Positions 8,302 through 29,041 of a stretch of 31,960 bases of DNA are shown here, piece by piece. The notes below the pieces were generated by a model. The model saw only the letters and a program-made list of their open reading frames with translations, made no database searches and was not told the origin of the DNA. The DNA is from a virus: the IMG/VR virus record IMGVR_UViG_3300046010_002404, positions 1 to 31,960 of that record; one strand, given 5' to 3'. Position 1 is the stretch's first letter. The number at the start of each line of letters is the position of its first letter. A program made the translations under genes and the position numbers.

Positions 8302-8790
8302 TTATGTAGATTTTATAATATTTAACTTATTTACACCAGTAAGATGCGTCTTACATTTTATAGACCAAGACTCACCATACTTTTCTAAATCAGATTCAAG
8401 AGAGTATTCAGGATTTTTACCCATTACAAATTGATTTTCTATTACTAGATCAACTTCATAATAAGCCTCTTTCAAATATATTATATCCCCTACTTCCATA
8501 ATTAAATTTATATCTATAAGATCCTCTCTCAAAAATCTAAATTCTGCCATTTGTCCTATTGACTTTCCGAAAGATTGGTCCTCTGATACCTGATCATCTA
8601 TTGCGTAAAAACAAGCTATTAATATAGGCTGATCATACATTTTATTTTTAGACTCTCCGTATATGTTGTATTTAGTTTCTGATAAAGACAGTTTATAATA
8701 CAGTATTTCCTCAGCGACTATTCTATTTACTACTTGTCTGCTGTGGTGTCTAAAAAATGATCTTGCTCTCGGTCCTCCGTAAAGTGCCAT
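8302..8790 (-). CDS. 14: gp14-like neck protein
   Basis: 162 residues, shorter than T4 gp14 (256). The start (MALYGGPRARSFFRHHSRQ) and the central FRFLREDLIDINLIMEVGD, then YYEVDLVIENQFVMGKNPEY, match the neck-protein family: a FLREDL segment followed by a beta structure that ends in a statement of the tail-side interface. gp14 forms the neck ring with gp13 and joins head to tail. The ATG overlaps the stop of the preceding gene by one base (TAATG) and the gp15-like gene starts one base after its stop, so 14 and 15 are translationally coupled. No membrane segment or signal peptide. Confidence 0.75.
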   Translation of the reverse strand: MALYGGPRARSFFRHHSRQVVNRIVAEEILYYKLSLSETKYNIYGESKNKMYDQPILIACFYAIDDQVSEDQSFGKSIGQMAEFRFLREDLIDINLIMEVGDIIYLKEAYYEVDLVIENQFVMGKNPEYSLESDLEKYGESWSIKCKTHLTGVNKLNIIKST

Positions 8791-9185
8791 TAATCAGTTT
8801 TTACAAGGGTGTCTAATTTGGGAGATGCCGCAACTATGCCTGGAATATTATTTAGACCTTTTTCTTTATCAGACCTTACCATAGCATGCTTTATAAAATT
8901 TACATGCTTTCTAGGATCTTTATTAGTTATAAATTTAACTTCTACAGTACTGTATTCGTAGTCCTTTAGAGTTCTGTTTATTTTATCCAGTCTTTCGTCT
9001 CCTCTCAAATCTACAATAGTTACTGTAGGAATGCCTCTAACTCTTTCAACCGCCTGTACTCTATTTATTTTTCTTTTAAATTTTACAAAAAAAACACAAG
9101 AGTAGCTATAAAATGTTTTTTTTATAGACTCTTTTCTCTTAAATCTATAGTCACGATCTTCTAATATGATATCAATTAGTTTCAC
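8790..9185 (-). CDS. Conserved phage protein between gp13 and gp14
   Basis: 131 residues beginning at a GTG that shares one base with the stop of the gp13-like gene. The first nine residues (MKLIDIILE) are of the capsid-targeting-like type described in the findings. Residues 25-100 alternate strands and helices (SYSCVFFVKF, a helix with RVQAVERVRGIP, the strand VTIVDL, then TVEVKFITNKDPR), a likely ferredoxin-like alpha/beta fold. The C-terminus ends IPGIVAASPKLDTL. Position suggests a neck or head-completion accessory protein. I do not recognise a named family and give no function. Confidence 0.7.
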   Translation of the reverse strand: MKLIDIILEDRDYRFKRKESIKKTFYSYSCVFFVKFKRKINRVQAVERVRGIPTVTIVDLRGDERLDKINRTLKDYEYSTVEVKFITNKDPRKHVNFIKHAMVRSDKEKGLNNIPGIVAASPKLDTLVKTD

Positions 9186-10351
9186 TATGCTATTATTATT
9201 GGCATTGGGAAATTTATAAAAGTCTCTCTCATCGTACTAGCTTCTTGAGATTTTTTCTCAAGTTGTTTTTGACGAGATGTGTCATCTAGTGTCCCTCTTA
9301 ATTGTTCTACCAAAGCAGTTTTTTCTGCGTTTGCTTGATCAATTAATGTTTGTCCATTAATAGTAACTTCTGCTCCTGGAACAGGTATCTGGCTGTATAC
9401 GCCTCGTATATTACCTAATGTTTCTTTTGTTACAGCTAGAGCATAATCAAATATCCATTTTTTAAATATGTCGTTTATTTGATTATAATTAATGTTATTA
9501 TAAGGAACGTTACTTACGTTTGTTATCAATCCATTAGAAGGGTTTCTGTATACAGCACTCCTTTCTGATTTTTTAATGTATGTAAAAAACAATCTTTTAT
9601 CAAAAGTAGGTATTGGGAATATTTTAAGCCTGTTATTTATAAGCTCAAAACTATAACCAGACTTTCTTATCTGATCATTAAACTCAATTGCTTGTATCTT
9701 TAAAACATCAAAGTATACAGGCATCAACATAAAGTTAATTCCAGGAGAAAATTGTCCAAATCCAAATGTCTCCATTAATGATTGAAGTCCTGTACCAGTT
9801 CCAGCATATGGATCAAAGTATCTTACTATCGCTGGAGGTGCTTCATAGAATATTCTTTTAATTTCTATGCTATCTCCAGGAGCTAATGATGCAGAAGCGC
9901 TAGCCCATGCGTTTAGATCGTAATGTTGTTTACCAGATATTAGGTCTATAGACCCAGAGTAGTAGTTTATATTACCTCCACTAGCAACTTCGCTACCATA
10001 ATCAGCAGCTATTCTAAACATGTTATCAAAATTCGGTTGAATTAGAGTCGTGTTTAGTGCGCTACCTGTTGTATTTCCTTCTAGAGATAGGTAGTTCTCC
10101 CTTATTTTATACTCATATAGCTCCTTTCCATAAACAGCTACAGCATCTTCTAAAGAAGCATAGAAATTGATGTCTTGAAGTTCAATTTCCATAATTGGAT
10201 AGCCTAATCTTCTAGCAGCAAACTTTACAAATTTTTGACCATCTACCTGAAATTCAGAATCGTTGTCAAAAAATCCAAAAGGGGTGTTTCCTGATACCGG
10301 AAGTAATGCTACATTAGCATCATAATATTGTATTTCTACTTGGCCAGCCAT
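9185..10351 (-). CDS. 13: gp13-like neck protein
   Basis: 388 residues against about 309 in T4 gp13. Recognisable segments are MEIELQDINFYASLEDAV and LYEYKIRENYLSLEG near residues 55-95, YEAPPAIVRYFDPYAGTGTG around 170-190, FGFGQFSPGINFMLMPVYFD around 200, and a C-terminal FKKWIFDYALAVTKETLGNIRG helix around 300. This set is typical of the neck protein placed upstream of gp14 in T4-type marine phages. It would form the head-tail connector ring below the portal. The ATG lies 27 bases after the phoH stop, in a gap carrying two overlapping copies of the ATATTTATA motif. The assignment to gp13 rests on pattern memory and gene order. Confidence 0.7.
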   Translation of the reverse strand: MAGQVEIQYYDANVALLPVSGNTPFGFFDNDSEFQVDGQKFVKFAARRLGYPIMEIELQDINFYASLEDAVAVYGKELYEYKIRENYLSLEGNTTGSALNTTLIQPNFDNMFRIAADYGSEVASGGNINYYSGSIDLISGKQHYDLNAWASASASLAPGDSIEIKRIFYEAPPAIVRYFDPYAGTGTGLQSLMETFGFGQFSPGINFMLMPVYFDVLKIQAIEFNDQIRKSGYSFELINNRLKIFPIPTFDKRLFFTYIKKSERSAVYRNPSNGLITNVSNVPYNNINYNQINDIFKKWIFDYALAVTKETLGNIRGVYSQIPVPGAEVTINGQTLIDQANAEKTALVEQLRGTLDDTSRQKQLEKKSQEASTMRETFINFPMPIIIA

Positions 10352-10361
10352 TATAATTCTT

Positions 10362-10376
10362 TATAAATATAAATAT
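10362..10376 (-). promoter_or_regulatory. Two overlapping ATATTTATA motifs before gp13
   Basis: Two copies overlapping by three bases (10362-10370 and 10368-10376), the nearer 10 bases before the ATG of the gp13-like gene. Confidence 0.5.
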
Positions 10377-10378
10377 TA

Positions 10379-11068
10379 CTAACTCCTGTATTGTTCAAAT
10401 ACAGAAAGCATAGGATCAACTATAGGATGTCTATGATTAGTTTGTAAGGTTATAATACTAAATCCCGGTATGTCTTTCATATGTTTACAAACAAAATCAA
10501 ACCCTGAATCTTTTTTATTTCTTAAATCTATCTGGGCTGAGTCTCCACATATAATTATTTTAGAACCTAAACATAGTCTTCCCATTATTAATTCTAACTG
10601 ATTTTCAGAACAGTTTTGTGCTTCGTCTATTATAACTATGCAGTTAGTAAAATTAAATCCTCTTAGAAATCCTACCGGGATTATTTCTATGAGTCCTTCT
10701 GTAACTATCTTTTCTATTTTTTCTTTACCGCATAATCTAAACATGTTGTCGTAAACAGGTGCAGTAAAGGGCGCCATTTTTTCTTCTTTGGTACCAGGTA
10801 GAAATCCTATCTGTTCTCCCGCTGTTATGGCTGGTCTTGCTATTATAATCTTCTCTACATCTTTTTTAAACAGCATATCTAAGGCTACTTGTGCAGCTAA
10901 TAACGACTTACCGCTACCTGCTTTACCTCTTATTACTGCTATATCACTGTTTATTATTTTATCTTTGGCATTCTTTTGTTCCTCGTTTAAAGATATATTA
11001 AACTTTATAGGATTCTTTGGAACTCTCTTTGACTTAAAAACCTGATCGCTGTGATGATTAGATGACAT
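10379..11068 (-). CDS. phoH: PhoH-family ATPase
   Basis: 229 residues forming one PhoH-type P-loop domain. Walker A is GKAGSGKS at 48-55, followed by the KIIIARPAITAGEQIGFLPG segment at 73-92 that is diagnostic of PhoH. Walker B is VIIDEAQN at 145-152, then GDSAQIDL. PhoH proteins are cytoplasmic ATPases, fused in some bacteria to RNase domains; in phages they occur very widely and their job is unknown. Some work ties them to RNA metabolism or phosphate stress, but nothing here shows which. The gene sits between the capsid terminator and the gp13-like gene, so it opens a new transcription unit, and an ATATTTATA motif lies 11 bases before its ATG. Confidence 0.95.
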   Translation of the reverse strand: MSSNHHSDQVFKSKRVPKNPIKFNISLNEEQKNAKDKIINSDIAVIRGKAGSGKSLLAAQVALDMLFKKDVEKIIIARPAITAGEQIGFLPGTKEEKMAPFTAPVYDNMFRLCGKEKIEKIVTEGLIEIIPVGFLRGFNFTNCIVIIDEAQNCSENQLELIMGRLCLGSKIIICGDSAQIDLRNKKDSGFDFVCKHMKDIPGFSIITLQTNHRHPIVDPMLSVFEQYRS

Positions 11069-11079
11069 AAACGCTTTTA

Positions 11080-11088
11080 TATAAATAT
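11080..11088 (-). promoter_or_regulatory. ATATTTATA motif before phoH
   Basis: Eleven bases before the phoH ATG and just after the gp23 terminator. Because the previous unit ends there, this copy is the strongest argument that the motif marks a transcription start. Confidence 0.55.
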
Positions 11089-11097
11089 TTTAAAGTA

Positions 11098-11126
11098 AAT
11101 AAAAAAGCCGGGACGAACCCGGCTTT
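11098..11126 (-). terminator. Rho-independent terminator after gp23
   Basis: Arms 11104-11112 and 11118-11126 form a perfect nine-pair stem (AAAGCCGGG type) with a five-base loop. Reading on the minus strand it is followed by a T tract (complement of the A run at 11098-11103). It lies 20 bases after the gp23 stop and ends the head operon before phoH. It is the only strong terminator I see in the window. Confidence 0.9.
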
Positions 11127-11145
11127 CTTAATATTTAGATTCTCA

Positions 11146-12783
11146 TTAGAATCCGCTGTTGAGGTCAGCAACTTCAACTTTACCGAAGAATTCGGAACGC
11201 AACATTTTCTTAGCGTACCTGGTCATAAGACCTTTTCTTGGTGTGAAAGTTTCTGGATCATACAACAATGGAGTCATGATCAATGGAATGTAAGGGGCAA
11301 ATACCGCACCTGTTTCCAAGAACTGGCTACCTTTGTAAGCCAATAGGATGGTGTTCTCATTCATGTATGGGTTAACATACACTTTGTAACGGCTATTCAA
11401 TTGACCAGCTTTGTGTGAACCCATTGCAAATTCTTCTTTGCTACCATCGGTATCAGCGGCATAGCCAGGGATAGATTCGATGATTGTTGCGATAGAAGGA
11501 CCGCACATAAGTACGTTAGCTTGGCCACGCAAAGTCTTTTGGTGGATCTTACGAGCTACACCTTGGATCTTAGTACCAAGAGTGGCGAACCACTGACCTT
11601 GAGTGTTATAGTAACCACCAGAACCAGCTGCTTGTACGCTCCAAGTACCAGCTACCTTATTGTAGAAGGTGTTTGCAGCAGCAGACCAGTAGTCTGTAGT
11701 GTTAGCGTTTTGGATCAACATGTCGATGATTTCGAGGTCGATCTCAAGAGAGATATATTCTGACAGAGTAGAAGTTAACTCAGCTTCAGCATCAAGAGAC
11801 TGGTATGCATTCAGGTCTTGGCTGAATTCCGGAGTCCACTTTGCTTTTAACTTTCTAGTTTTAGCAACTACAGCCTCAGAACGAAGTTCAACGTTGATCT
11901 CAGGGATAGCGTTAGAACCAGTCAAAGGAGATGATGCTGCATCTTCGAAGTCACCACGGCTGTTGTCAGCTGGTTGCTTCTGATAGAATACTACGCCAGA
12001 ACCAGAACCCAAGTTCAATTGACCAGCAGAGCCAGATACAATGAAAGAAAGGGTATCGTTAGAAGCGTAAGAAGTAAATTCAGCAAACAAGTTGCTTTCG
12101 TTTACACCACTACCAGTTACGATGAAACCACGTACAGCGTTGATGTCGAGGTTAGTCAAAGAACCGCTAGCAGAAGTTACTGACAACTTACGAAGTCTAC
12201 CAGCAGCAGCAGATGCACTGTAGATAGAGTTGAAGTTAACGTCAGCAGCAGATGCTGTTGTGATAGTGTAGTTTACAGATGCAGAGTAGTTGTTGATTGA
12301 GTAACCAAAATCTGCGCCGTAAAGACCACCAGAAGGATCAACATCTTTTACATTTGTAGTACCGTACATGCTGTCACCAGATGTGAAACGGTTTTGTTGA
12401 GCTGTACCAGGACGGTTGTTACCATACTTGAATTCTAAGAAGAATACAAGACCAGCAGGTAAAGTCATTGGTTGTACGCTAACGAACTCTTTAGAAGAGA
12501 TTTCAGCGAAGATTTTACGAACCAATGGAAGAGCTACACCAGCCCATTGCTCGCCAGCACCTACGGTGAATGTTCCACCAGTACCAGTTTGTGATTGTTC
12601 TACGAGAAGCTGCTTAGCTTGGTTCTCAAGGATGATAGACATCCTTTCTCTACCATAGGCCTGGTTCTTAAGGTCGTTACCTTCAAGAAGACCCGTAGCT
12701 TCCCACTTCTTTACTAACCTTTGCGCCTCAGTCATCTGAGATGCGTACGGGTTAGAACTTTCGAGGAGAGATTGTACGTTCAT
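11146..12783 (-). CDS. 23: Major capsid protein gp23-like
   Basis: 545 residues, near T4 gp23 (521). The N-terminus (LLESSNPYASQMTEAQRLVKKWEATGLLEG) and the downstream GEQWAGVALPLVRKIFAEISSKEFVSVQPMTLPAG are classic gp23 features; the C-terminal half has LKAKWTPEFSQDLNAY and YVNPYMNENTILLAYKGS. A probable prohead-protease site (L-x-E) is L60-V61-E62, close to the place where T4 gp23 is cut. The protein forms the capsid shell. Codon use is visibly richer in C/G third bases than in neighbouring genes, as expected for very high expression. The 25-base leader is almost pure A with no Shine-Dalgarno. It is followed by a strong terminator. Confidence 0.95.
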   Translation of the reverse strand: MNVQSLLESSNPYASQMTEAQRLVKKWEATGLLEGNDLKNQAYGRERMSIILENQAKQLLVEQSQTGTGGTFTVGAGEQWAGVALPLVRKIFAEISSKEFVSVQPMTLPAGLVFFLEFKYGNNRPGTAQQNRFTSGDSMYGTTNVKDVDPSGGLYGADFGYSINNYSASVNYTITTASAADVNFNSIYSASAAAGRLRKLSVTSASGSLTNLDINAVRGFIVTGSGVNESNLFAEFTSYASNDTLSFIVSGSAGQLNLGSGSGVVFYQKQPADNSRGDFEDAASSPLTGSNAIPEINVELRSEAVVAKTRKLKAKWTPEFSQDLNAYQSLDAEAELTSTLSEYISLEIDLEIIDMLIQNANTTDYWSAAANTFYNKVAGTWSVQAAGSGGYYNTQGQWFATLGTKIQGVARKIHQKTLRGQANVLMCGPSIATIIESIPGYAADTDGSKEEFAMGSHKAGQLNSRYKVYVNPYMNENTILLAYKGSQFLETGAVFAPYIPLIMTPLLYDPETFTPRKGLMTRYAKKMLRSEFFGKVEVADLNSGF

Positions 12784-12808
12784 TTTTTGTTTTTTTTATT
12801 TTGTTTTT

Positions 12809-13951
12809 TTATTTGATAATACCAGCGAGTTTCTGCCACCTAGATACTTGCGCATCAGCATCAGTAATCACGCCTTCATTTATAACACGCTTAGTTGAGG
12901 TACCGGCTGCCTTAGAAGCAAATCCCATAGACTCTTTAAGACCTACTTTAGTATTGTCGTTCTTAACGCTGAAAGCTTGATCTAAAGATTCATGTACAAT
13001 TTTAGCTTCTTTAGTTGTGCTAGCTTTGTCAAATGCGCTAATAACTTTTAATTTTTGTTGTTCAGAAAGATTGTACTTACGTAAAATCTTATTTAAGTAA
13101 AGAAGTTTAGCGTTGATCAAGTTAGTTTCGTTAACTTTTTGAGCTAACTCAGCAGCTTGACGCTTGATTTCTTTAATTTCTTCTACTTCTGCACCTTTTT
13201 CTTCTGCTACACCTTTTGCATTACGAAGTGCGTTGGCAATTACTTGAGCATTACTCTGCATCTTTTGAATTACGTCGTCACCAATTCCTATTTTCTTCAA
13301 AATTGGAGTTAATAATGCCATTAAAACGCCTTTATCTTCACCCTCACCTACATAAGATTTGTCATCAGACTCCTCGTCTTTAGCTTCTTCCATTTCTTCT
13401 TCGAGATCACCTTCCATTTCAGCAAGAAGTGCAGCGATGTCGATTTCTTCGTCTACTGATTTTTCATTATCATCGTCTCCATTTTCTTCTTCAGAATCAT
13501 CATCGTCAGAATGGCTTTTCTTACCTTCTTTTTGTGGCTCCATGTCATCATCACCCTCGTCTTCAACTTCCATTACTTCCTTCTTTTCATCATCGTCATC
13601 ACTGTCATCACCTTTTTCACCTTTTTCAAGTTCAGCTATGATTTCATCAAGATCGAAAGCTTCGTCAGCGTCACCTTCTATGTCTCCTTCAGCTTCTTCT
13701 TCCATACCGTAGCCTTCATCATCACCTTCTTCTTTCTCCTGCTTTTTCTCTTCCATTTTTTCTTTATCAGGGTCCATTTCTTCGTCGTACTCTTCTTCAA
13801 GATCGTCAGCTTCTTCTGATAAACGAGCGGCAAGCATTGCCTTAACTTTAGAATCAAAAGCTTCGTTTAAACTAGCTTTTGCATTCTCAATAGCCATTTT
13901 TTTGATAGCATCCGCTTCTGCGATTGCTTCTTTGAGCAAATTTGTGTTCAT
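12809..13951 (-). CDS. 22: Prohead scaffold protein gp22-like
   Basis: 380 residues with three parts: an alpha-helical N-terminus (LLKEAIAEADAIKKMAIENAKASLNEAF), a very acidic low-complexity stretch from about 45 to 205 made of D, E, K and G, and an alpha-helical C-terminal part (LLTPILKKIGIGDDVIQKM and LNKILRKYNLSEQQKLKVISAFDKA). This composition and the place between protease and capsid genes identify the scaffold of the prohead core, which gp21 degrades before packaging. I-A-E-A at 10-13 matches the T4 cleavage consensus. The start is preceded by AAGGAAAAA, one of the few Shine-Dalgarno-like leaders in the window. Confidence 0.9.
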   Translation of the reverse strand: MNTNLLKEAIAEADAIKKMAIENAKASLNEAFDSKVKAMLAARLSEEADDLEEEYDEEMDPDKEKMEEKKQEKEEGDDEGYGMEEEAEGDIEGDADEAFDLDEIIAELEKGEKGDDSDDDDEKKEVMEVEDEGDDDMEPQKEGKKSHSDDDDSEEENGDDDNEKSVDEEIDIAALLAEMEGDLEEEMEEAKDEESDDKSYVGEGEDKGVLMALLTPILKKIGIGDDVIQKMQSNAQVIANALRNAKGVAEEKGAEVEEIKEIKRQAAELAQKVNETNLINAKLLYLNKILRKYNLSEQQKLKVISAFDKASTTKEAKIVHESLDQAFSVKNDNTKVGLKESMGFASKAAGTSTKRVINEGVITDADAQVSRWQKLAGIIK

Positions 13952-13978
13952 TTTTCCTTAAATTTTTTTTTGGATTTA

Positions 13979-14045
13979 CGCCTATTAAAGAGGTGTAATA
14001 GATTTCTTTTTATTCAACTCTTTATAAGAAAAAGAGTATTAGGCG
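13979..14045 (-). promoter_or_regulatory. Nested inverted repeats in the scaffold-gene leader
   Basis: Outer arms 13979-13987 and 14037-14045 pair over nine bases with one mismatch. Inside, 14017-14023 and 14031-14037 form a perfect seven-pair stem with a seven-base loop. The structure would be in the 5' leader of gp22/gp23 messages. There is no T tract after it, so it is not a standard terminator. Confidence 0.45.
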
Positions 14046-14056
14046 AATATGTCTAC

Positions 14057-14065: not shown

Positions 14066-14109
14066 ATAAAAAAAGTAAAAAAAATATATTTTATATAAAT
14101 TTTTTACTC

Positions 14110-14718
14110 TTAGCAATGACAAACCCCTGTATTATTACAGATAAGGTCTTTTATAATAGTATCTATATTCTGAAAAGATTGTGTCATTTCGTATCCTTCT
14201 TTCAAGGTTAAATTAGCCCCTTGTGTAGATTCAAAAGATACTAAATCAAATGTCAACAATTTAAAATCGTCATTAACTACTACAGTTCCATCGTGAGATT
14301 CTTGAACACTTCCCATACCTCTAGAGCTAATCCCTACTGGAATTCCTCTACGAAGTAGCCCTGCAGCGATTCTACCTGCTGGGAACTCATCTCCATCTAA
14401 AATCTCAATATCTCCCATAACATCATCTCCTTTCCAGTAAATGTTTACTATATTATGAGATACGTTTTTAAGGTTAACCACATTAGAATCGCTATGATCT
14501 AGCTCCCCTAAAGCACGGTTTTGCTTAACCATGTTGCTGTTATACTCTTCTATTTCTTTGCGCAGTACTCCTTCAGGATACACCCTACCATTCCTATTTT
14601 TAGCATTAGCCCTTTGTATGACTACATTCTTAATAATCATCTTCTCACCAGGCTTGTAAGCCTCAGTAAGCTTTATAGGACTTATATCTAACTTATAATA
14701 TTCTGTAAGTACTTGCAT
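14110..14718 (-). CDS. 21: Prohead maturation protease gp21-like
   Basis: 202 residues, near T4 gp21 (212). The fold markers are NRNGRVYPEGVL at 41-52, the catalytic histidine in GELDHSDS (H75) and the serine in GISSRGMGS (S131 or S132), with FDLVSFES following. This is the herpes-assemblin-like serine protease clan of T4 and HK97-type phages. It activates inside the prohead, cuts the scaffold, core and capsid proteins after (I/L)-x-E, and digests itself. A candidate self-site is L4-T5-E6. It follows the 1045-residue gene by 11 bases and is separated from the scaffold gene by the longest non-coding gap in the window. Confidence 0.93.
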   Translation of the reverse strand: MQVLTEYYKLDISPIKLTEAYKPGEKMIIKNVVIQRANAKNRNGRVYPEGVLRKEIEEYNSNMVKQNRALGELDHSDSNVVNLKNVSHNIVNIYWKGDDVMGDIEILDGDEFPAGRIAAGLLRRGIPVGISSRGMGSVQESHDGTVVVNDDFKLLTFDLVSFESTQGANLTLKEGYEMTQSFQNIDTIIKDLICNNTGVCHC

Positions 14719-17700: not shown

Positions 17701-17867
17701 TTTTTAAAAGCTATTTCATGTACCCTTCCTTCTGAAAAAGAAGACTTTGTGGAAGGGTAAGTGTCTATTGTCCTTAAAGGTACTTTTGAAGCAGACGCTG
17801 TTTTTAAAGATTTTATTTTATCTAAATCTTCTTTTAAACTATATAATATTTTATCACTAAAAGTCAT
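14730..17867 (-). CDS. Large charged protein in the prohead-core position (1045 aa)
   Basis: An unusually long gene for its place: in T4 the space between gene 67 and gene 21 holds the small gene 68. The protein is rich in Lys, Glu, Asp and Ser, mostly helical and low in hydrophobics, with no cysteine-rich or membrane part. At least two regions look like small alpha/beta domains of similar style (HYYVIYRKLTKAEYDSL near 64-80; YYAVTLATDDEG near 440-455), and the YIGVQGPEVKKKRLEEYMKK segment lies near 870. The N-terminus ends in L11-K12-E13, a possible gp21 site. Likely a prohead-core or internal head protein. I do not recognise a family; function is unknown. Confidence 0.75.
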   Translation of the reverse strand: MTFSDKILYSLKEDLDKIKSLKTASASKVPLRTIDTYPSTKSSFSEGRVHEIAFKNIVDNQKRHYYVIYRKLTKAEYDSLKNNYKIAASIVPSDQPEHSKDIYYTSTKEYKRGAKGSDVVKKFATKNFIYLSKDQLEETNKKLPEEHRLELVPLQDVYEKGIGVRNTSLLDYLTYLEDIERAKKLKRKDPTDIRPAKLKIAEFFLRQEIQRYIKSLIVNFATKYNLNSSQEERVRAAKKEEEVRKNLSDEIRKFVKAQSKGDEEFEESVLSSLETALERPKLYSAFEKYYYSGSEDDSTTEDPKKSASADVKKEKPAVPTKKTDSKTKGKVDSFITDRNNVSTLRNIIQNYSDSVDDTRDEEDKKLSHKKYYNKMIDFLKSILDLSVSEKDTDRIIEDIKNYIKGFTENPDLYNRIKYAYDKMKQMKSSQRISEDIQKREKQYYAVTLATDDEGNFTAPALDLAKRYDSGKVSKYAPGIYKVFLDKRQAENIERLSRTPKLSGVESIVPEEEYKKNKPTKGEEPKTQDAEKKLRGYRSLSGEKKVRTADDSYFDPTNPKDVAALVGKVQPGDKVYSVNFKIGDKKSEDLIMPLSRIKKLVPDFKIDAGAQKQPSFDFEMEKKRGISKDTGNTIYDTVKGVLKVNSPVPLNEPVKSEKEKEKGGPALYFVVNKADKRVIKGFPTEKEADDLKNSLGSTNYITVSKINLPKYGINLTRKSDVSEKNVKEELSKEDEAKLKTQVSFVIESDPNDFDKVAQVTGDAVEAVLKDKKLTITLKGGSKVIFDGSSSNGVFIKDINKPNEVNKVNDVLEPLKTIVDNAFKKPKADSKLEAYIRTRIRKAIQESELGQYIGVQGPEVKKKRLEEYMKKYEWGFQDSEDPYVRSNGSEKHAIVSKLVHELGDEGVSIFNSYAPKGYEIARPDDLNDMADSPLGSQMARPFEPNTLTMRGGRVAEADEKEIDSMFDDNVPMDQQLKNAEELASDYMRDRTLSKGIQKNPNLGHVEKTIVKFIQKASEKGARKDIDPKSKILQALQVISDRQMNKYR

Positions 17868-17872
17868 TGTTA

Positions 17873-18421
17873 TTATTTTTTAACAACTTTCTTTTTAGGT
17901 GCATTTTTCATCTGATTTTCCTTATCCTTAAAATTTTTCTTTTTGACTTCAATAGGAAGATCAGCACGATTTTTCTTTTTAGCTTTATACTCAATCATAT
18001 CTAAACGAGTATAATAGTTTGGATCCTCAGCTAAATGATCTAAAGCAATTTCTTTAGCTTTATCTATATCATCAGTATGCTCAAGTTCATGTTTCCATCC
18101 TTTAGTAAATTCGTAATAGTTAACTTGATCAGGAGTTAGTTTATCACCTTTTCCTCCTTTAAGCTTTTGTTTCTTACCCTCAGTAAGAGACTCTTGCAAT
18201 GATTTAAAAGCACTGAAAAAGTTATACCCTTGCTTTATTTCTGACTTTGATTCTGCGTCCCACAAGTGTCCTTTTCCTTTTAGTTTAGACACTGTGTCGT
18301 CATAAGACATTGTATTGGTAATAGAATCCTGATACATAGGATTTCTTCTTACATGCCATAAGAATTCAGATTTAGACATCTCTTCTTTTAACACTTTTTG
18401 ATATAATTGCTGTGTTGTCAT
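17873..18421 (-). CDS. DUF5661-like protein in the head operon
   Basis: 182 residues. The segment around 98-142 (VNYYEFTKGWKHELEHTDD, then KAKEIALDHLAEDPNYYTRL) is the hallmark of the DUF5661 family as I remember it: a conserved Trp, Glu-His pair and a His-Leu-x-Glu-Asp with paired tyrosines. The C-terminus is strongly basic (KKKNRADLPIEVKKKNF, PKKKVVKK). The N-terminus MTTQQLYQKVLKEE has L11-K12-E13 and looks like a capsid-targeting sequence. A basic protein with such an N-terminus in the core region would fit an internal DNA-associated head protein. It begins one base after the gp67-like gene ends. Confidence 0.75.
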   Translation of the reverse strand: MTTQQLYQKVLKEEMSKSEFLWHVRRNPMYQDSITNTMSYDDTVSKLKGKGHLWDAESKSEIKQGYNFFSAFKSLQESLTEGKKQKLKGGKGDKLTPDQVNYYEFTKGWKHELEHTDDIDKAKEIALDHLAEDPNYYTRLDMIEYKAKKKNRADLPIEVKKKNFKDKENQMKNAPKKKVVKK

Positions 18422-23000: not shown

Positions 23001-23001
23001 A

Positions 23002-23421: not shown

Positions 23422-23668
23422 ATTCTTTGTATATTTTTTTGATTTTACTTTGGTTCTCTTCTAATTGCATTTCTGCTCTGTGTACTTTATCCACAAAAAT
23501 ATCTACCTGCTCTCTATAAGCATTTATAGAATCTTCCTTAAGTTGTATTTGGTCGTTTAGCTCTTTTACAATTTGTTTATACTCTAATTCTTTTTTTACA
23601 CTAGATCTATAAAAAATTATAGCGGCTCCTACAAATACAAAAATAACTAATATAAGAGTCTTTTTCAT
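23324..23668 (-). CDS. Membrane-anchored coiled-coil protein, possible Rz-like inner spanin
   Basis: 114 residues from the ATG of MKKTLILVIFVF; an upstream ATG at 23725 would overlap the previous gene by 56 bases. One N-terminal transmembrane helix (residues 3-20) is followed by a long Glu/Lys/Gln-rich helix (25-85) and a short end with ELERFFSNRY. Size and plan match i-spanins of the Rz type. The next gene overlaps its 3' end out of frame, the arrangement common for Rz/Rz1 pairs, although that partner lacks a lipoprotein cysteine. No endolysin or holin is recognisable beside it, so the lysis call is tentative. Confidence 0.65.
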   Translation of the reverse strand: MKKTLILVIFVFVGAAIIFYRSSVKKELEYKQIVKELNDQIQLKEDSINAYREQVDIFVDKVHRAEMQLEENQSKIKKIYKEYEVHLLSVDSYDIDELERFFSNRYKDSASTQQ

Positions 23669-23669
23669 A

Positions 23670-24104
23670 TTATTTAATTGAATCTTCCCAAAATCTAAAT
23701 AAAATATTACCTCTAAGATAAGCATCTTTTTCCATTTCTAACAAATGTTTATCTTTTTGTGTGTATCTAGGATCTGATAAGGATTGCAGGTTTGATAAAT
23801 TAAACTTACCAGCTAAGTTTTGATTATGGTGTATTAACTCATGGGAGTAGCTTCTTAAAACATCTTTTATATGCCTTCCTGCTACAAATAGAGTTACAGA
23901 CTTTTCTCCTGGATTATAATATGCAGTTTTACCAAAAGGATCCATAGCATATTCTTGACTGTTAGATATAACTACAGTAGGGTAAGGCATTATTTGAACT
24001 CCGGAATTTTGAATCCACTCAGCTAAATTAAGCAAATATGGGACAATATTATGCCCAGAAACCATTACCTGTTGATTAATATTTTGGTATTTCGTTAAGT
24101 CCAT
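23670..24104 (-). CDS. Putative zinc metallopeptidase (HELIH)
   Basis: 144 residues. The helix SYSHELIHHNQN carries the HExxH zinc motif (H88, E89, H92), and the later helix LLEMEKDAYLRGN contains E125-x-x-A128, the usual position of the third ligand in gluzincin-type enzymes. Upstream, YNPGEKSVTLFVAG forms the expected edge strand. The protein is small, has no signal peptide, and is sandwiched between a conserved unknown gene (TAATG overlap) and the possible spanin genes. It could cleave virion or host proteins. A lysis-related peptidoglycan role is only a positional guess, and the substrate is unknown. Confidence 0.75.
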   Translation of the reverse strand: MDLTKYQNINQQVMVSGHNIVPYLLNLAEWIQNSGVQIMPYPTVVISNSQEYAMDPFGKTAYYNPGEKSVTLFVAGRHIKDVLRSYSHELIHHNQNLAGKFNLSNLQSLSDPRYTQKDKHLLEMEKDAYLRGNILFRFWEDSIK

Positions 24105-24646
24105 TATGCTTCTGGTTCTGGTGTTTCCTCTTCTTCTGGAGGAGGCGGTGCTTCTTCTCCTCCCTCTGCTCCTCCCTCTGCGGGAGCTGGTTCTTCATCT
24201 GGCTCTGGTTCTTTTGTTATAGCATTGGTTTTTAATAATATGTTTATTTGATCCAAAGCTTGTTCAAACTCGGACCTGTTAACAATATCGTACTTTTTTC
24301 CGTTTGCAATAACTTGAAAAAGATCAGATTCGGCAAAATCTTCAGGATATTTTAATTCTAGAGGGCTAGGATTATATTTCAAATCAAAAAAGTTTCCATT
24401 AGGAAACAGTACTCTAAAAGTAGTTGGTTTGTATGATATACATCTTATATCCGATATAATTTCCCTAAGCTGTCCTATTGACTTTTCGTTCTTTTTATTT
24501 TGAGTAGTCAATAATTTTATTAAAGTTCTAGTAATCTTTGGGGATTTAGACATTATTTTCTCCAAATTAGACTCGTTTTCAATTGGAGTTATTTCTGTCT
24601 CTTCCCACAGTTTATTCCTAAATATTTCGTAAAATCTTAGTTTCAT
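24104..24646 (-). CDS. Conserved phage protein with acidic/proline tail
   Basis: 180 residues from the ATG of MKLRFYEIFRNKLWEE. A longer reading from 24841 only overlaps the previous gene and is rejected. The N-terminus is of the capsid-targeting-like type with L13-W14-E15. Residues 30-135 form a compact domain with TFRVLFPNGNFFDLKYNP and FQVIANGKKYDIVNR strands, then a helix ending LLKTNAITK. The last 35 residues are Pro/Glu/Ala/Gly low complexity. I do not recognise a functional family. The motif ATATTTATA lies four bases before the ATG. Confidence 0.7.
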   Translation of the reverse strand: MKLRFYEIFRNKLWEETEITPIENESNLEKIMSKSPKITRTLIKLLTTQNKKNEKSIGQLREIISDIRCISYKPTTFRVLFPNGNFFDLKYNPSPLELKYPEDFAESDLFQVIANGKKYDIVNRSEFEQALDQINILLKTNAITKEPEPDEEPAPAEGGAEGGEEAPPPPEEEETPEPEA

Positions 24647-24650
24647 TATA

Positions 24651-24659
24651 TATAAATAT
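24651..24659 (-). promoter_or_regulatory. ATATTTATA motif four bases before ATG
   Basis: Directly after the stop of the cysteine protein gene and only four bases before the ATG at 24646, so as a -10 box it could give only a leaderless message. Confidence 0.5.
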
Positions 24660-24944
24660 CTAATCTTCTTTAGATTTGGTTTTTTTAGGTTCTGCTCCTT
24701 TTCTAGGTTCCCACCAGTTAGTACAATACTCATTTGGATCATAAGGAATTGAATCAGTTCCAGCCCATTTTTGATAGTACTCACTAATACAGTGGTATTC
24801 TTCAGATTTATCTTTATGAACCCACCATTTACAGTTTGCACAGCAAGATCCTCCGTAAGGAACTTTTAGCCCTGCTTTATGGTTTTCTGGGACTTCATAA
24901 GGCCCTCCTCCGTATTCTTCTAGTAATTTTAAAAACTTTATCAT
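24660..24944 (-). CDS. Small cysteine protein, HiPIP-like
   Basis: 94 residues. Cysteines at 34, 35, 38, 52 and 74 are spaced C-x2-C-x13-C-x21-C (from C35) with aromatic residues around them (NCKWWVH, YCTNWWEP). This is the layout of high-potential iron-sulfur proteins, in which four cysteines hold a [4Fe-4S] cluster, although HiPIPs are normally exported and this has no signal peptide. A zinc site is the alternative. The start MIKFLKLLEE resembles a capsid-targeting sequence (L7-L8-E9). The ATG overlaps the stop of the upstream gene (ATGA). Confidence 0.7.
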   Translation of the reverse strand: MIKFLKLLEEYGGGPYEVPENHKAGLKVPYGGSCCANCKWWVHKDKSEEYHCISEYYQKWAGTDSIPYDPNEYCTNWWEPRKGAEPKKTKSKED

Positions 24945-25552
24945 ACTTTTAAATAATTGTTTAATACTCCGCCTATTGCTGACATTTCTAGCTCTAAATC
25001 GACAAGTTGTTTATCAGTTAATTCTTTCTTTCTATTAGAATAATCTACTCCTACAATCCCAACAAACTCATCTTTTATAGTATATAAAGGAAAAAGGTAG
25101 GTACTTTTAACATTAGCTCCTGGGATTACGGAAGTAAATCCTTCAAACTGTTTATTCTCTATTGATGTGTCTGGTATAGATATTACTTTACCTTTATGTA
25201 AAGTGTTTATGGATTTGCTAAATAGACTTACCGGAATATTTTGAAATTGATGCTGACAAGGAAATACTCCTGTGGATAGAAGTTCGTAAACTAAACTAAA
25301 CTTTTGAATTGATTTTCCCGTGGGATAAAAATTACCTCCATTGTGAAACTGAGCTAACCACACCCTATCTGCGTGTGACTGTTCTTTTACAGTCTCTAAC
25401 TTAACGTTTATAGTCTGATTAACAGCTATAGACTCCGATAGAGGATCTTTTTTCTTAGGAGAAGCCCACAACTTAACGTAGTGAACTGCTATGGGGCCTA
25501 TTATAGAAGTCGTGACAGCGGTTATTATAGCCACTATTAGTTCGTTATTCAT
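24941..25552 (-). CDS. Membrane-anchored GAF-like protein
   Basis: 203 residues. One N-terminal transmembrane helix (about 4-26) is followed by a positive patch (SPKKKD) and a soluble domain. That domain has DRVWLAQFHNGGNFY near 62-76 and FPLYTIKDEFVGIVGVDYS near 152-171, the two strands expected of a GAF-like sensor fold. The Asn-Gly-Gly stretch after Phe-His is conserved in similar phage proteins I recall. It would sit in the inner membrane with the domain in the cytoplasm. Ligand and role are unknown; superinfection immunity or control of lysis are conceivable. Confidence 0.72.
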   Translation of the reverse strand: MNNELIVAIITAVTTSIIGPIAVHYVKLWASPKKKDPLSESIAVNQTINVKLETVKEQSHADRVWLAQFHNGGNFYPTGKSIQKFSLVYELLSTGVFPCQHQFQNIPVSLFSKSINTLHKGKVISIPDTSIENKQFEGFTSVIPGANVKSTYLFPLYTIKDEFVGIVGVDYSNRKKELTDKQLVDLELEMSAIGGVLNNYLKV

Positions 25553-26460
25553 TTTTTTGTATATATTATTACAAACTTTTTTTCATTTGAGTTAAACATA
25601 AATAAAGTTTTATTACGATCTATCTTATTAACTCTAATAAATTCCATCATTGTTAATCTAGCTGCGGATTCAGTTTCCGCTGCTCCTAATTCTATTTTAA
25701 TATCATTTTCGCTAGCATTATCGAAATTCTTATATTTTACTTTGTCAAGAAAATCAATATTATATCCCTCTTTTTCAAATCCTTTAACTACTTTTTCAAT
25801 AATGCTTTTTGCAGCTACTTGAGATATAGATGTTGGTGTTGATGCTTTAGAAGCATCTGGTGTTCCTAAGAGACTGATTAAAGAAATACCAGCAGCAGCT
25901 AGCCCCTGTTTTAAATTCATTTCATCTAAACTTTCTGTCTTTTTATCCTTTGTTCTTGATTTAAAAGAAACTTTTGCTTTATTTGTATTTGAAACAAACT
26001 GCTTTCCTTTTTTGGATGCTGCTACTTTCTTTTTAGAGGTAGCTGCTCTTTCTTCTTTAGACAGACTTTTTGCTTTAGCTAAAGGTAGACATCTTGTAGT
26101 AGGTTTACCTTTTTTCATAGTTCCACATTTACCTGCTATGTTGCCTTCAGTATCTATTCTAACCCACTTTTCTCTTTTAAACCAACTATGTAAACTGCCT
26201 TCTTCTAACTCTTCTACTTCTTCTTTTTTTACTTTTTTCTTTTTTTTTCCTATCCCTCCCTTACAAACCTGTACAGCTCTTCCCATTAAGTAGGCTGAAT
26301 GTTTTTCCCCAGCAGCTTTTCTACGTTCTGCGTAGGCTTTTCCTTTTGGACAAAGCTTTTCATACAACAGTTCAGTATTCTCCTCTTGCCCACAACTTTC
26401 ACAGTTCATGGCCTCCAGCTCTTCTAAAAGCATTTTTTTTAATATATCCAAAAGCTTCAT
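25549..26460 (-). CDS. DUF6321-type protein, multi-part, possible internal head protein
   Basis: 303 residues with three parts. Residues 1-16 are a capsid-targeting-like helix (MKLLDILKKMLLEE, with L11-L12-E13). Residues 30-165 are a very basic region containing CPKGKAYAERRKAAGEKHSAY and the DUF6321 hallmark SLHSWFKREKWVRID, followed by GKCGTMKKGK, RCLPLAKAKSLSKEERAA and GKQFVSNT. From 180 there is a hydrophobic stretch (LAAAGISLISLLG) and a separate C-terminal alpha/beta domain to 303 (TLFMFNSNEKKFVIIYTKK). The basic region could bind DNA in the head. Function is unknown. Confidence 0.75.
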   Translation of the reverse strand: MKLLDILKKMLLEELEAMNCESCGQEENTELLYEKLCPKGKAYAERRKAAGEKHSAYLMGRAVQVCKGGIGKKKKKVKKEEVEELEEGSLHSWFKREKWVRIDTEGNIAGKCGTMKKGKPTTRCLPLAKAKSLSKEERAATSKKKVAASKKGKQFVSNTNKAKVSFKSRTKDKKTESLDEMNLKQGLAAAGISLISLLGTPDASKASTPTSISQVAAKSIIEKVVKGFEKEGYNIDFLDKVKYKNFDNASENDIKIELGAAETESAARLTMMEFIRVNKIDRNKTLFMFNSNEKKFVIIYTKK

Positions 26461-27095
26461 TACTCAGCAGATTTAATAGCTTGAGATACCGCAGCAGCGT
26501 AGTCTTTACCTGTTAAATTCTCCTTTCCCCCTTTCTCTTTTTTCATTGCTTTTATTATCTCTTCTTTCTTCCTTTTTTCAGGCTTAGTCATTTTTTTTTC
26601 ATCTACAGGCTGTATCATTTCTGACTCATCCTCGTCTTCTTCTTCCTCTTCATCATGCCCTCCTAACTCATGGAATCCTTGAGCTGCTTGATCTATAAAG
26701 TTTTCTGCATTAGATATGTGGTCTTGAATCCATCCTGGTAGGTTCCTCTCATCATCTCCTAATCTATCCATTAATTCTACGCAAGATTGAATGATAGATT
26801 TTAAACTATTGTGAGCCATCGATACTTCATGGTCCATACCATCAGATCCTTCTTTAACTCTTTTAATATTCTTCCACATTGCTGCGGCTGCTACTTTCTT
26901 TCCTTTCTCTTCAGATCCGTACTGCTTAGCAGCTTTTGCAGCTATTTTTTCAAAGCCTTTACCTTTTTTGCCTATGTCTCCACCTGCTTTTGCTTTCTTT
27001 GCAACATCAGATTTTTGCTTTTTTGTAAGTCCGGCAGAAGGTTTTTCTTTTTTTGCCTCTAATATAGCCTCTTTAAAAATTTGGGAGAGATTCAT
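26460..27095 (-). CDS. Basic/acidic two-part conserved phage protein
   Basis: 211 residues. The N-terminal part (1-80) begins MNLSQIFKEAILEAKKE (capsid-targeting-like, with F7-K8-E9 and I11-L12-E13) and continues with a Lys-rich repeat region (SAGLTKKQKSDVAKKAKAGG, KGKGFEKIAAKAAKQ). The middle (85-145) is a helical domain with MDHEVSMAHNSLKSIIQSC, MDRLGDDERNLPGW and SNAENFIDQAA. An acidic run of E and D follows, then a C-terminal helix. The middle module recurs in many aquatic T4-type phages without a known function. The ATG follows a 27-base gap bearing an ATATTTATA motif. Confidence 0.72.
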   Translation of the reverse strand: MNLSQIFKEAILEAKKEKPSAGLTKKQKSDVAKKAKAGGDIGKKGKGFEKIAAKAAKQYGSEEKGKKVAAAAMWKNIKRVKEGSDGMDHEVSMAHNSLKSIIQSCVELMDRLGDDERNLPGWIQDHISNAENFIDQAAQGFHELGGHDEEEEEDEDESEMIQPVDEKKMTKPEKRKKEEIIKAMKKEKGGKENLTGKDYAAAVSQAIKSAE

Positions 27096-27113
27096 TTTTA
27101 TATAATTTATAGA

Positions 27114-27122
27114 TATAAATAT
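27114..27122 (-). promoter_or_regulatory. ATATTTATA motif before basic/acidic protein
   Basis: Lies in a 27-base gap, 18 bases before the ATG at 27095, immediately after the zinc-ribbon gene. Confidence 0.5.
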
Positions 27123-27701
27123 TTAATTTTCCAGTCTTTCTTTCATTTCTTTAAGACCTTCTTTCCATTTATCAACAAGTTTATCTTTGTCCAGACCTCC
27201 TTCCCACTCTTCCACATCTCCTTGTTCCGTAACATATGTTTCTTTTATGCTAGTTTTTGCAAACTCTTCTATAAACTGTTCTGCCTCTTCTATATGGGTT
27301 ATAATGTTTTTAGTAACCATATTTCTAGCATACTCTTCGTACTTTCCCTCCATTTTTAACTGTGTTTCCATGCTAATTACGCAGTTAAAACACATCCCAT
27401 GTAAAGGGTACATTTTCTTATCTAGAGGGTTTTTAGTAGGCTGAGAACACTTTGGACATAATAAAGGTATTCTAGTTAGTTTTTTTATCCTATCTAACTT
27501 TGTTACTGTTTGTTTTATACCATCTTTTATAGTCCAAGTCTTATCTCCCTCTTCCCAAACATCCCCTTCTAAATGATCTTCCGTTTGTTTTTCGTAACCT
27601 ACTTGTACTCCGGTAGCATCTCCATATTTTTTGGTAATGATGTTTCTCAGCCTTTGTACGTCTCTTTCTCTAAATTCTTTCTTTAACTTTGTGTCTGACA
27701 T
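27123..27701 (-). CDS. Zinc-ribbon-like conserved protein
   Basis: 192 residues. A zinc ribbon is formed by C82-P-K-C85 and C104-F-N-C107, with H101 just before the second knuckle. It is flanked by a basic helical N-terminus (RDVQRLRNIITKKYG) and a C-terminal helical part (EYARNMVTKNIITHIEEAEQF). The WEEGDKTWTIKDGIKQTVTKLD strand segment precedes the ribbon. I do not recognise a catalytic domain, so it may be a structural or nucleic-acid-binding accessory. It lacks the capsid-targeting N-terminus of its neighbours. Confidence 0.7.
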   Translation of the reverse strand: MSDTKLKKEFRERDVQRLRNIITKKYGDATGVQVGYEKQTEDHLEGDVWEEGDKTWTIKDGIKQTVTKLDRIKKLTRIPLLCPKCSQPTKNPLDKKMYPLHGMCFNCVISMETQLKMEGKYEEYARNMVTKNIITHIEEAEQFIEEFAKTSIKETYVTEQGDVEEWEGGLDKDKLVDKWKEGLKEMKERLEN

Positions 27702-27713
27702 AACTATATGTTT

Positions 27714-28190
27714 TTATTTTATCATCTCATACGAGTTGTAATCTCCTTTTGTACTCTTTCCTATTACTCTAGCTTTACCTTTTCTTACTAAACTGTCCCA
27801 AAATCTAACACCGTCAGATGTTAGCAAATTGTCAGACTTAAGTGTTCTTCTTATATTTTTATACACATCGTCATTGACTGCGGTGTATAGCATGTTAGCA
27901 TATCCTTTACCTCTAATTAAAGGATGTGTTTCGGAACCGTAAACTTGTCCTGTTTTATTATAAACAGTAACTCCAGCTATTATTTTGTTATTTGCTATAA
28001 GTAGGTAGTATGTTAAATTACCTGGGAAATCTCCTTTACCTATCTTCATATCAACATCCTTATTTGCATTAAGATCTGCAACTACATCTTTTATGTCATA
28101 ATCCTCAAATCCATCAAACTTTGATATATCACCAGTATATTTTTCTATAGGCAATGCCATTTCAAGTAATATATCTAAAAGTTTAATCAC
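27714..28190 (-). CDS. GNAT-type acetyltransferase with targeting-like N-terminus
   Basis: 158 residues starting at a GTG (GTGA overlap with the preceding stop). Residues 60-110 hold the GNAT core: the strand LTYYLLIANNKIIAGVTVY, then the acetyl-CoA loop and helix HPLIRGKGYANMLY (R93-G-K-G-Y-A). The C-terminal SDNLLTSDGVRFWDSLV segment is typical of small phage GNATs. The first ten residues (MIKLLDILLE) form an extra amphipathic segment ahead of the enzyme, with L8-L9-E10. If that is a targeting peptide, the mature enzyme would start near residue 11. An alternative ATG at 28160 begins right there. The substrate is unknown. Confidence 0.75.
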   Translation of the reverse strand: MIKLLDILLEMALPIEKYTGDISKFDGFEDYDIKDVVADLNANKDVDMKIGKGDFPGNLTYYLLIANNKIIAGVTVYNKTGQVYGSETHPLIRGKGYANMLYTAVNDDVYKNIRRTLKSDNLLTSDGVRFWDSLVRKGKARVIGKSTKGDYNSYEMIK

Positions 28191-28447
28191 AGTTTTTTTA
28201 CTCTTATTTTTAAATCTCCTGTTCCTTTTATTGTTCTATGCCACTGTCCCATTGGTATGTGTATTTGCCCCTCTATTTTTATAGGAAGCTCATTCTCCCT
28301 TTGAAACATCCAATCAGTAGGTTCTATAGGTTCTACTATTCTATCTTCACGATCTCTATGCCAAACCATCTCTCCAGACTCTACATCACTTTTAAAAACC
28401 CTTTCATACCAACCTTCATTATAATTTTCCGTATACGGCTTACTCAT
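28187..28447 (-). CDS. Small conserved protein, possible cupin-like fragment
   Basis: 86 residues, rich in aromatic and charged residues (ENYNEGWYERVFKSDVESG, MVWHRDREDRIVEP, IPMGQWHRTIKG). The beta-rich pattern with VWHRDRED and a C-terminal H-x-x-I-x-G could be half of a cupin-like barrel, but no complete metal-binding set is visible. Start and stop are shared with neighbours by a few bases, so it belongs to the same operon. No membrane part, signal or targeting-like N-terminus. Function unknown. Confidence 0.65.
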   Translation of the reverse strand: MSKPYTENYNEGWYERVFKSDVESGEMVWHRDREDRIVEPIEPTDWMFQRENELPIKIEGQIHIPMGQWHRTIKGTGDLKIRVKKL

Positions 28448-28450
28448 ATT

Positions 28451-29041
28451 CTACCAATATCCTGTAAAACTAGATTTTAATCCAAGCATAGACGCATATC
28501 TAGGAAGTCTACAAGCCCAATATCCTGCACTTGTTCTATCTTTATTCTGTGCACATTTATGTCTAGCTGCAAAAGATTTACGTGCCTTAGGATCATTTAT
28601 TTTTGCTTTTAAACCGCTTGTATCACCAAAAGAAACTTTCTTAATACCTCCACCTGGTTTACGTACATAAACGTAGAACTTCTTTGATCCTCCACGCTTA
28701 GGTTTATTTAATGCAGGTTGTTTTTTCTTTGCTTTTGCTTCCATTAATTGCTCTTCACTCATAGGAAAATCAAGAGGCACTTTAATACCATTGTAGTATC
28801 CGAATTCTCCAAGATCGGTATTTTTTATAAGTTTCTCTTCTTCTTCTGTAAGTAGGAGTTCTCCTTTTTTGTATAGTTCTCTAGCTTCTTTAAAAAGCTC
28901 AAAATACTTCTTAGAGAATGGGCGGTATACGTTTTCGGTAAGAAGCTTTTGATTATCTATATGATATTGTAGACCTTCTGATATTGGTTTGCTATCGCAG
29001 TTACAGTCAGAAACTTCTTTTAAGAAATCTGTGAATTTCAT
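28451..29041 (-). CDS. Conserved phage protein with basic C-terminal domain
   Basis: 196 residues. Starts MKFTDFLKEVSDC (targeting-like, with L7-K8-E9). The first half is helical and acidic (LFKEARELYKKGELLLTEEEEKL). From about 118 a compact basic domain begins: KKFYVYVRKPGGGIKKVSFGD, SGLKAKINDPKARKSFAARHKC, AGYWACRLPRYASMLGL and a final SSFTGYW. The last domain, with C158 and C172 around a K/D/R turn, recurs in phages of aquatic bacteria and looks like a small zinc- or nucleic-acid-binding module. The ATG overlaps the upstream stop (TAATG). Confidence 0.72.
   Translation of the reverse strand: MKFTDFLKEVSDCNCDSKPISEGLQYHIDNQKLLTENVYRPFSKKYFELFKEARELYKKGELLLTEEEEKLIKNTDLGEFGYYNGIKVPLDFPMSEEQLMEAKAKKKQPALNKPKRGGSKKFYVYVRKPGGGIKKVSFGDTSGLKAKINDPKARKSFAARHKCAQNKDRTSAGYWACRLPRYASMLGLKSSFTGYW

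Follow-up and report, generated by a model that had tools for sequence, protein, structure and literature searches.

A capsid-targeting-like leader shared by unrelated proteins in uncultured T4-like phages

The internal proteins of T-even phages are described, in passages of PMC3012670, as a highly diverse set in which the capsid-targeting sequence (CTS) alone is conserved. For T4, passages of PMC9026906 give propeptides of 10-19 residues cut by the rule L/I-x-E; in the IPIII leader, targeting depends mainly on residues 4 and 7 and processing on residues 8 and 10, aspartate at position 10 inhibits processing and still allows targeting, and foreign proteins fused to the leader are packaged and delivered. 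IPIII has also been linked to host range (excerpts of PMC9391042). In the sequence record, T4 ipII and ipIII begin MKTYQEFIAE/A (slashes mark known or putative cut sites). Here we analyse a comparable N-terminus that recurs on unrelated proteins in the window, a 31,960-base fragment corresponding to positions 1-31,960 of IMG/VR virus record IMGVR_UViG_3300046010_002404, and in related uncultured phages.

Two other described systems come close. In cyanophage S-SM1, the cytidylyltransferase GC190 was detected in purified virions, as was gp21 (passages of PMC3037559), and this virion enzyme has a CTS-like start, MKKFSAFLNE/A; Syn33 and P-SSM4 are alike with small changes, and the GC190 homologues of P-HM2 and GAP32 begin straight in the domain, leaderless. 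The giant Salmonella phage SPN3US offers many head cargo proteins, processing by the prohead protease gp245 and ejection, a likeness drawn from partial descriptions of its head ejection proteins and not from their sequences. The titles and abstract openings that we covered on head proteins (T4, SPN3US and P1 work) contain no account of leaders in the present phage group, which is not proof of absence.

The window carries a T4-type head module on the minus strand, with terminase (phrog_2 match, E value 8e-52) and prohead protease, and with the portal, scaffold and major capsid genes arranged as in T4. In the terminase, the closest isolates share 48% (Flavobacterium phage immuto) and 45% (Microcystis phage Mel-JY01) identity with the window; the annotation of these two, together with gene position, gave us the names of the portal and scaffold. 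A 136,878-base contig (G001) has a terminase and a protease both identical to those of the window.

Compared with the CTS of T4 IPI, IPII, IPIII and Alt, the leader described here has the 10-residue length of IPII and IPIII, hydrophobic residues at positions 4, 7 and 8, an acidic residue at 6 and Glu at 10, all in the T4 register, in a 10-mer too short to show common descent. As in T4, it ends in L/I-x-E, here a putative gp21 site, it is common to unrelated bodies and the genome encodes a gp21-type protease. It differs in sequence (MIKLxDILxE, not MKTYQEFIAE, with two further leader types), in the tens of body clusters that follow it, in the consecutive placing of several cargo genes in the head-module region, and in belonging to phages remote from the T-evens, as their best terminase match, to immuto, indicates. 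The system is a much larger version of the T4 internal-protein system.

From sequence comparison we judge, with a probability of about 0.82, that the shared N-terminus is a T4-kind capsid-targeting leader cut by a gp21-type protease, and that it serves a large, exchangeable cargo set delivered at infection. The leader would bind the scaffold core during prohead assembly, so that the attached protein is enclosed; the gp21-type protease would then cut after [LI]-x-E and free the cargo, which, by analogy with T4 alone, would leave the head with the DNA at infection and may act in early take-over or counter-defence. Since the leader alone would give entry, new cargo could be gained by joining any coding sequence behind it in a few variable slots. 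The original prediction had proposed head targeting and trimming for eight window proteins; comparison supports that part well and extends the set far beyond eight, and leaves the proposed scaffold site and the fold labels unsupported.

A shared leader with a conserved glutamate

All eight N-termini singled out at the start are present at their predicted positions on the minus strand. They are given here with the slot that holds one of them and with the similar start of a 1045-residue protein.

29015..29041, minus strand: leader MKFTDFLKE/ of the 28451-29041 protein, which has a phrog_7595 C-terminal domain; 9 of 9 distinct orthologue N-termini end in [LIFM]xE
28161..28190, minus strand: leader MIKLLDILLE/, with a GTG start, immediately preceding Met11 in a protein that weakly resembles GNAT; in a variable slot
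27714..28190, minus strand: cargo slot between genes 28187-28447 and 27123-27701, empty or with other contents in relatives
27057..27095, minus strand: leader MNLSQIFKE/AILE/ of the 26460-27095 protein, with two possible sites; the second occurs in 10 of 10 distinct orthologue N-termini
26422..26460, minus strand: leader MKLLDILKKMLLE/ of the 25549-26460 protein; 8 of 9 distinct orthologue N-termini, the start of the ninth being called within the leader
24918..24944, minus strand: leader MIKFLKLLE/ of the 24660-24944 cysteine-rich protein; Glu9 in 22 of 22 aligned relatives
24602..24646, minus strand: leader MKLRFYEIFRNKLWE/ of the 24104-24646 protein, of a type other than MIKL; hydrophobic-x-Glu in 10 of 10 distinct orthologue N-termini
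18383..18421, minus strand: N-terminus MTTQQLYQKVLKE/ of the 17873-18421 DUF5661 protein (Pfam match above cut-off); 12 of 12 distinct N-termini
17829..17867, minus strand: N-terminus MTFSDKILYSLKE/ of the 1045-residue protein; [LF]xE in 7 of 7 picked orthologue N-termini, with the remainder changed
9159..9185, minus strand: leader MKLIDIILE/, with a GTG start, of the 8790-9185 protein; 7 of 7 distinct orthologue N-termini, and 8 of 8 in a separate cluster count

The GTG start at 28190 overlaps the upstream stop by 4 nucleotides, and the one at 9185 has an overlap of 1 nucleotide. For the GNAT-like protein, our gene caller, which is blind to the motif, placed the start at the internal ATG at 28160, right behind the leader, and the ten leader residues were restored for the window statistics. 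The orthologue count for the 26460-27095 protein is to be read with its selection in mind, the first site (FKE) having belonged to the criterion; in the corresponding cluster 11 of 12 members pass the loose rule defined below, and the twelfth is cut off by a contig start. The 25549-26460 protein is DUF5872-like at an E value of 3.7e-5, under the Pfam cut-off. Some of these proteins may not be cargo: the 1045-residue protein lies between portal and protease, the place of core proteins gp67/68 in T4, and may be core rather than cargo, and the DUF5661 protein is likewise a possible core protein.

We compared the frequency of such starts with shuffles over residues 2-20, using two definitions. A loose rule accepts hydrophobic-x-Glu ending at residue 8-16, without Pro or Gly and with at least 30% hydrophobic residues; the strict pattern is M-x(0,1)-[KRN]-[LFIVM]-x-[DNSTEKQRA]-[IVLF]-[LIFM]-x-E. 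Under the loose rule, shuffles yield 2.4 genes on average and 8 at most, and none of 2000 reaches the 11 of 32 minus-strand window genes that pass in fact: the eight, the major capsid protein, the 1045-residue protein and 30077-30628. The strict pattern finds 5 of 32 (8790, 24660, 26460, 27714 and 28451), where the shuffles average 0.02, never exceed 2 and so reach 5 in none of 2000. Because the loose rule is weak alone, the case rests on the shared pattern together with comparison between phages.

A search of whole genomes for the same N-terminal pattern, as the original prediction had suggested, finds strict leaders above shuffled expectation in four contigs: 6 of 140 genes in G001, 7 of 113 in G003, 5 of 90 in G004 and 5 of 59 in G005 (shuffle means at most 0.06). 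Part of them lie in a second cluster off the head module (G001 135420-136793, G003 8450-12123, G004 63962-65181). Two distant large contigs have 8 strict leaders in 242 genes and 3 in 251 (shuffle means 0.09 and 0.06), and 7 of the 8, and all 3, fall in one block near head genes, these being named from N-termini only and the G013 listing being partial at its start.

The glutamate recurs also where position 10 is left free. Of 136 distinct N-termini selected solely by residues 1-8, 120 have Glu at position 10, against a background of 15.2% of 2988; the count excludes the open reading frames (ORFs) used to fetch the loci and retains neighbours and paralogues. Many of the remaining 16 have [LI]xE a few residues off. 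In the 24660 family, Glu9, with [LI] two residues earlier, is invariant in all 22 aligned members and stands one residue before YGG, and three leader types precede this same Glu (MIKL.., MKQFNITNYL.. and MLKTDKV..; in L116 the leader was missed by the gene caller and read by eye). A logo built from one representative of each of 75 body clusters (see below) gives the consensus MIKLLDILKE/, hydrophobic at 4, 7 and 8, acidic at 6 and Glu at 10, with positions 4, 7, 8 and 10 largely imposed by the collecting pattern.

The same kind of site occurs in the head module itself, the relevant features of which are as follows.

14110..14718, minus strand: gp21-type prohead protease (phrog_207, E value 5e-47)
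12809..13951, minus strand: scaffold in the gp22 position, with C-terminus SRWQKLAGIIK; the same end recurs near the N-terminus of other proteins
11146..12783, minus strand: major capsid protein with a conserved [LMVI]xE at Glu62 (QLLVE/QSQT)

At the corresponding maturation site, all 10 aligned capsid proteins have [LMVI]-x-E, in which V and M are, on this alignment, a small departure from the T4 L/I-x-E rule.

Exchange of bodies and spread of the leader

Leader and body behave as separable parts. The slot at 27714..28190 is empty in L015, L018 and G003, and filled in the window, G001, G004 and L014 by four proteins that each bear a leader and have no mutual blastp links. In the window, G001 and G004, the similarity of the flank extends 7-10 codons into the leader and then ends. 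The G001 slot protein has a 38% identical relative in a 222-kb contig that matches from residue 20 onward and has a different N-terminus. For the GNAT-like body of the window, the relatives found are from one locus only, 100% identical and in a contig with a 100% identical terminase; for the 24660 family, tblastn against a phage isolate collection gave no match at an E value of 0.01.

Homologues with and without the leader, a comparison that had also been proposed at the outset, do exist. The phrog_7595-like domain stands as a bare, leaderless 79-residue protein in the small-phage records HTVC106P, Aegir and CRP-3, and follows other N-terminal parts in CRP-6, HTVC008M, pT24 and Melnitz-3. Among members of a body resembling 5'-nucleotidase, that of L137 starts with the leader, those of L118, L136, L163, L218 and L231 lack it, and four more carry other N-terminal extensions. 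Only these named cases are used here, as the raw count of 273 leaderless homologues mixes weak leaders, truncated starts and chance.

The leader is widespread in viral contigs, in which a DNA pattern for MIKLxDILxE matches at least 120 stretches, against 12 for a codon-permuted control. In 257 Gb of prokaryote genomes it matches 10; several of these do not lie at gene starts, and one, where three copies occur within 5 kb, resembles phage DNA. Over viral and prokaryote loci combined, an in-frame stop lies no more than 20 codons upstream of 135 of the 157 matches. We collected 357 distinct leader-bearing proteins, many of them fetched through the leader pattern itself, and these form 75 single-linkage body clusters, 63 of which contain the 10-residue form and a few of which are based on another leader type or on short ORFs. 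Multi-domain proteins chain 144 members into a single cluster; a coverage rule gives 118 groups instead.

A gp21-type protease is encoded in 19 of 20 leader-bearing contigs longer than 90 kb (11 of 12 in one set, which leaves out a thirteenth record, L092, with no strict leader in its examined stretch, and 8 of 8 in another). The sole exception among these long contigs has no gp23 or terminase match either and is probably incomplete.

Competing explanations

Several observations weigh against a packaged, trimmed and injected cargo set. First, the loose rule is permissive: applied to two T4 stretches, it picks out 9 of 41 genes for proteins other than internal proteins, lysozyme and DNA ligase among them, and misses ipI. 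In the two distant contigs of 242 and 251 genes it finds 27 and 19 leaders, where shuffles reach up to 23 and 19 respectively, so that only the strict form separates those contigs from chance. Second, among the closest isolates, strict leaders in immuto (2 of 230 genes) equal the maximum of 500 shuffles, and in the 37 kb of Mel-JY01 examined there is no leader excess at a 0.40 hydrophobicity threshold (2 of 42 genes). At this threshold, which excludes the T4 leader itself, immuto has 17 leaders in 230 genes, a count reached by 4 of 1000 shuffles, and G005 has 7, equal to its shuffle maximum. Third, the site is not universal, with D at position 10 in 5 and K in 6 of the 136 leaders, and the I10-A11-E12 that had been put forward as a cleavage site in the scaffold is present in the window and kept in 2 of 7 distinct orthologues, the other five having I-A-D or M-A-D. 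Fourth, long contigs may often belong to T4-like phages, which would weaken the co-occurrence with gp21. Finally, the literature covered yielded no virion, cleavage or injection data for these phages, and S-SM1 GC190 is a single case: of the 41 virion proteins the comparison covered this one, and the PMC3037559 passages neither tie its presence to the leader nor give its N-terminus or cut position. Of 16 other S-SM1 genes translated from the GC190 stretch, 1 passes the loose rule.

The strongest rival, which we nevertheless regard as unlikely, is that the leader docks proteins on a phage assembly such as the scaffold core or a replication or tail complex, leaving them outside the head or enclosed and uncut, with the Glu as part of a binding helix. 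A core-binding amphipathic helix needs no cut, the T4 leader with D10 still targets according to the PMC9026906 passages, and D occurs naturally at this position in the five leaders just mentioned. Against this, Glu is kept in the 24660 family despite its changed leader types, hydrophobic-x-Glu recurs at the capsid maturation site in 10 of 10 sequences, and the rule holds across unrelated bodies; together, these three points argue for a protease site more than for a single binding helix.

Far less probable is that chance and N-terminal composition produced the pattern, since a high A+T content biases the starts of phage proteins towards K, I, L and E. The loose matches in T4 and the 2.4 expected in the window by shuffling speak for such an effect, and single weak cases such as 17873 or 30077 may still be chance. 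For the strict type it is already unlikely, as shuffles that keep composition give 0.02 leaders against 5, and permuted codons 12 stretches against at least 120. That the leader is simply the integral first helix of each fold, inherited with its protein, is equally hard to credit: orthologues within the clade do keep it in the seven families counted (the scaffold apart), but unrelated bodies share it, the phrog_7595-like proteins of HTVC106P, Aegir and CRP-3 and the nucleotidase-like proteins include homologues without it, and in the GNAT-like protein a Met belonging to the body follows the leader immediately.

Presumed cargo, possible further tags and implications

Sequence searches name few of the presumed cargo proteins. 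Three sets were run against Pfam (20 cargo proteins chosen for visible motifs, ten window proteins and ten slot or cluster proteins), and 5 of the 40 have a match above the curated cut-off: zeta toxin (L139, L154), AAA (L141), thioesterase (L202) and, as the single such match among the window, slot and cluster proteins, DUF5661 for 17873. Below the cut-off are Acb1 anti-CBASS and 2'-5' RNA ligase (L161), RNA 2'-phosphotransferase (L190), HYD1-type ADP-ribosyltransferase (L142, L195), DHH (L207), alpha/beta hydrolase (L235) and HAD (L129).

Three fold labels given in the original prediction fared poorly. The GNAT label of 27714-28190 corresponds to a PF00583 match at an E value of 0.038 and 14.7 bits against a cut-off of 20.7, and the protein has no Protein Data Bank (PDB) sequence match at an E value of 1. 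The label HiPIP for 24660-24944 has almost no support: Pfam HIPIP matches 1 of 22 members (E value 0.006), and the family profile retrieves one implausible PDB chain (E value 0.25). An unaligned single-sequence model of the GNAT-like protein and a 22-sequence model of the cysteine-rich family reached predicted local distance difference test (pLDDT) values of 35 and 51, too low for a fold search. The 28451-29041 protein, labelled DUF6321, matches no Pfam family at an E value of 1 and instead matches phrog_7595 (E value 2e-15). In immuto, the product of 112261-112575, annotated as tRNA(Ile2) agmatinyltransferase TiaS, is 71% identical to a 105-residue leader-bearing cargo family; from this identity the annotation is probably wrong. 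This immuto protein starts with the leader MRLLELLRE/, and two others do so with MIKLIDLLTE/ (24569-24994) and MISIYNILKE/ (103366-103806).

Two other N-terminal elements recur in these phages. The octapeptide [RKE][LMWIF][QKML][KREQMNS]LAG[ILV] occurs 39 times in 3517 distinct proteins and not at all in one shuffle. Sixteen occurrences are at the very C-terminus (14 in scaffold position, including the end of the window scaffold at 12809-12841), 20 are near the N-terminus of other proteins and 3 are elsewhere; in 17 of the 20 N-terminal cases hydrophobic-x-Glu follows within the next six residues. These N-termini are found in L103, L104, L106, L107, L113, L121, L131, L138, L142, L188, L199, L222, L231, G007, G013 and immuto (gp83, 111675-112139). 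Possibly the octapeptide serves as another entry tag, modelled on the end of the scaffold. A third recurrent N-terminus, M..xL+xxI(K/R)E, occurs in 73 of the 3517 proteins, against 3 in shuffled N-termini (in L105, L113, L114, L126, L132, L151, G007 and others); its matches are partly false, as they include terminases and another conserved head-module family. In L151 (12869-13501) this third type precedes an ADP-ribosyltransferase-like start, which in L142 follows MIKLLDILKE. In immuto (NC_055915), four proteins (1803-2318, 103806-104354, 117631-118632 and 118632-118931) resemble one another in a longer N-terminus around NFDLKKFLVENKLTxNS; a composite of the immuto N-termini (MENFDLKKFLVENKLT..) matched four records, all immuto, at four places per record.

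Other features of the region bear less directly on the leader. Gene 23670-24104, a conserved leaderless neighbour, has a metalloprotease-like HELIHH motif, and its orthologues match the leader-bearing L220 13430-13798 (MRLKALLNE/). Genes with GIY-YIG-like starts, recognized by eye, lie between the head genes of relatives (L008 9067-9645; L009 3167-4027 and 14639-15232) and have no leader. At 184-6429, long low-complexity ORFs overlap on both strands (PVEPLVPV on the plus strand, HQ/VL-rich on the minus strand) and resemble collagen-like repeats seen in antisense or with a shift.

A broader proposal, to which we give a little better than even odds, is that a large group of uncultured T4-like phages has a general protein-delivery system with at least two detachable entry tags, MIKLxDILxE and a copy of the scaffold C-terminus (RMQKLAGI) followed by a protease site. 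It would load tens of unrelated proteins into the head, to be injected for a first strike or against host defences and exchanged between phages one slot at a time. The set would include kinases of the zeta-toxin type and thioesterase-like proteins, to which weaker matches add ADP-ribosyltransferase-like and Acb1-like phosphoesterase proteins. The RMQKLAGI end might, as a guess, bind the shell or the core.

If the leader is indeed a capsid-targeting sequence, a ten-residue tag would mark tens of anonymous families in environmental phages as predicted head cargo, which would enter the cell ahead of any phage gene expression, and injected effectors and anti-defence proteins could be sought by a simple rule. 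It would make a clear prediction for a phage in culture, immuto of Flavobacterium, as well as for the cyanophage virion data already available, might supply a packaging tag for delivery by non-T4 phages, and would offer a testable view of how phages exchange the proteins they carry.

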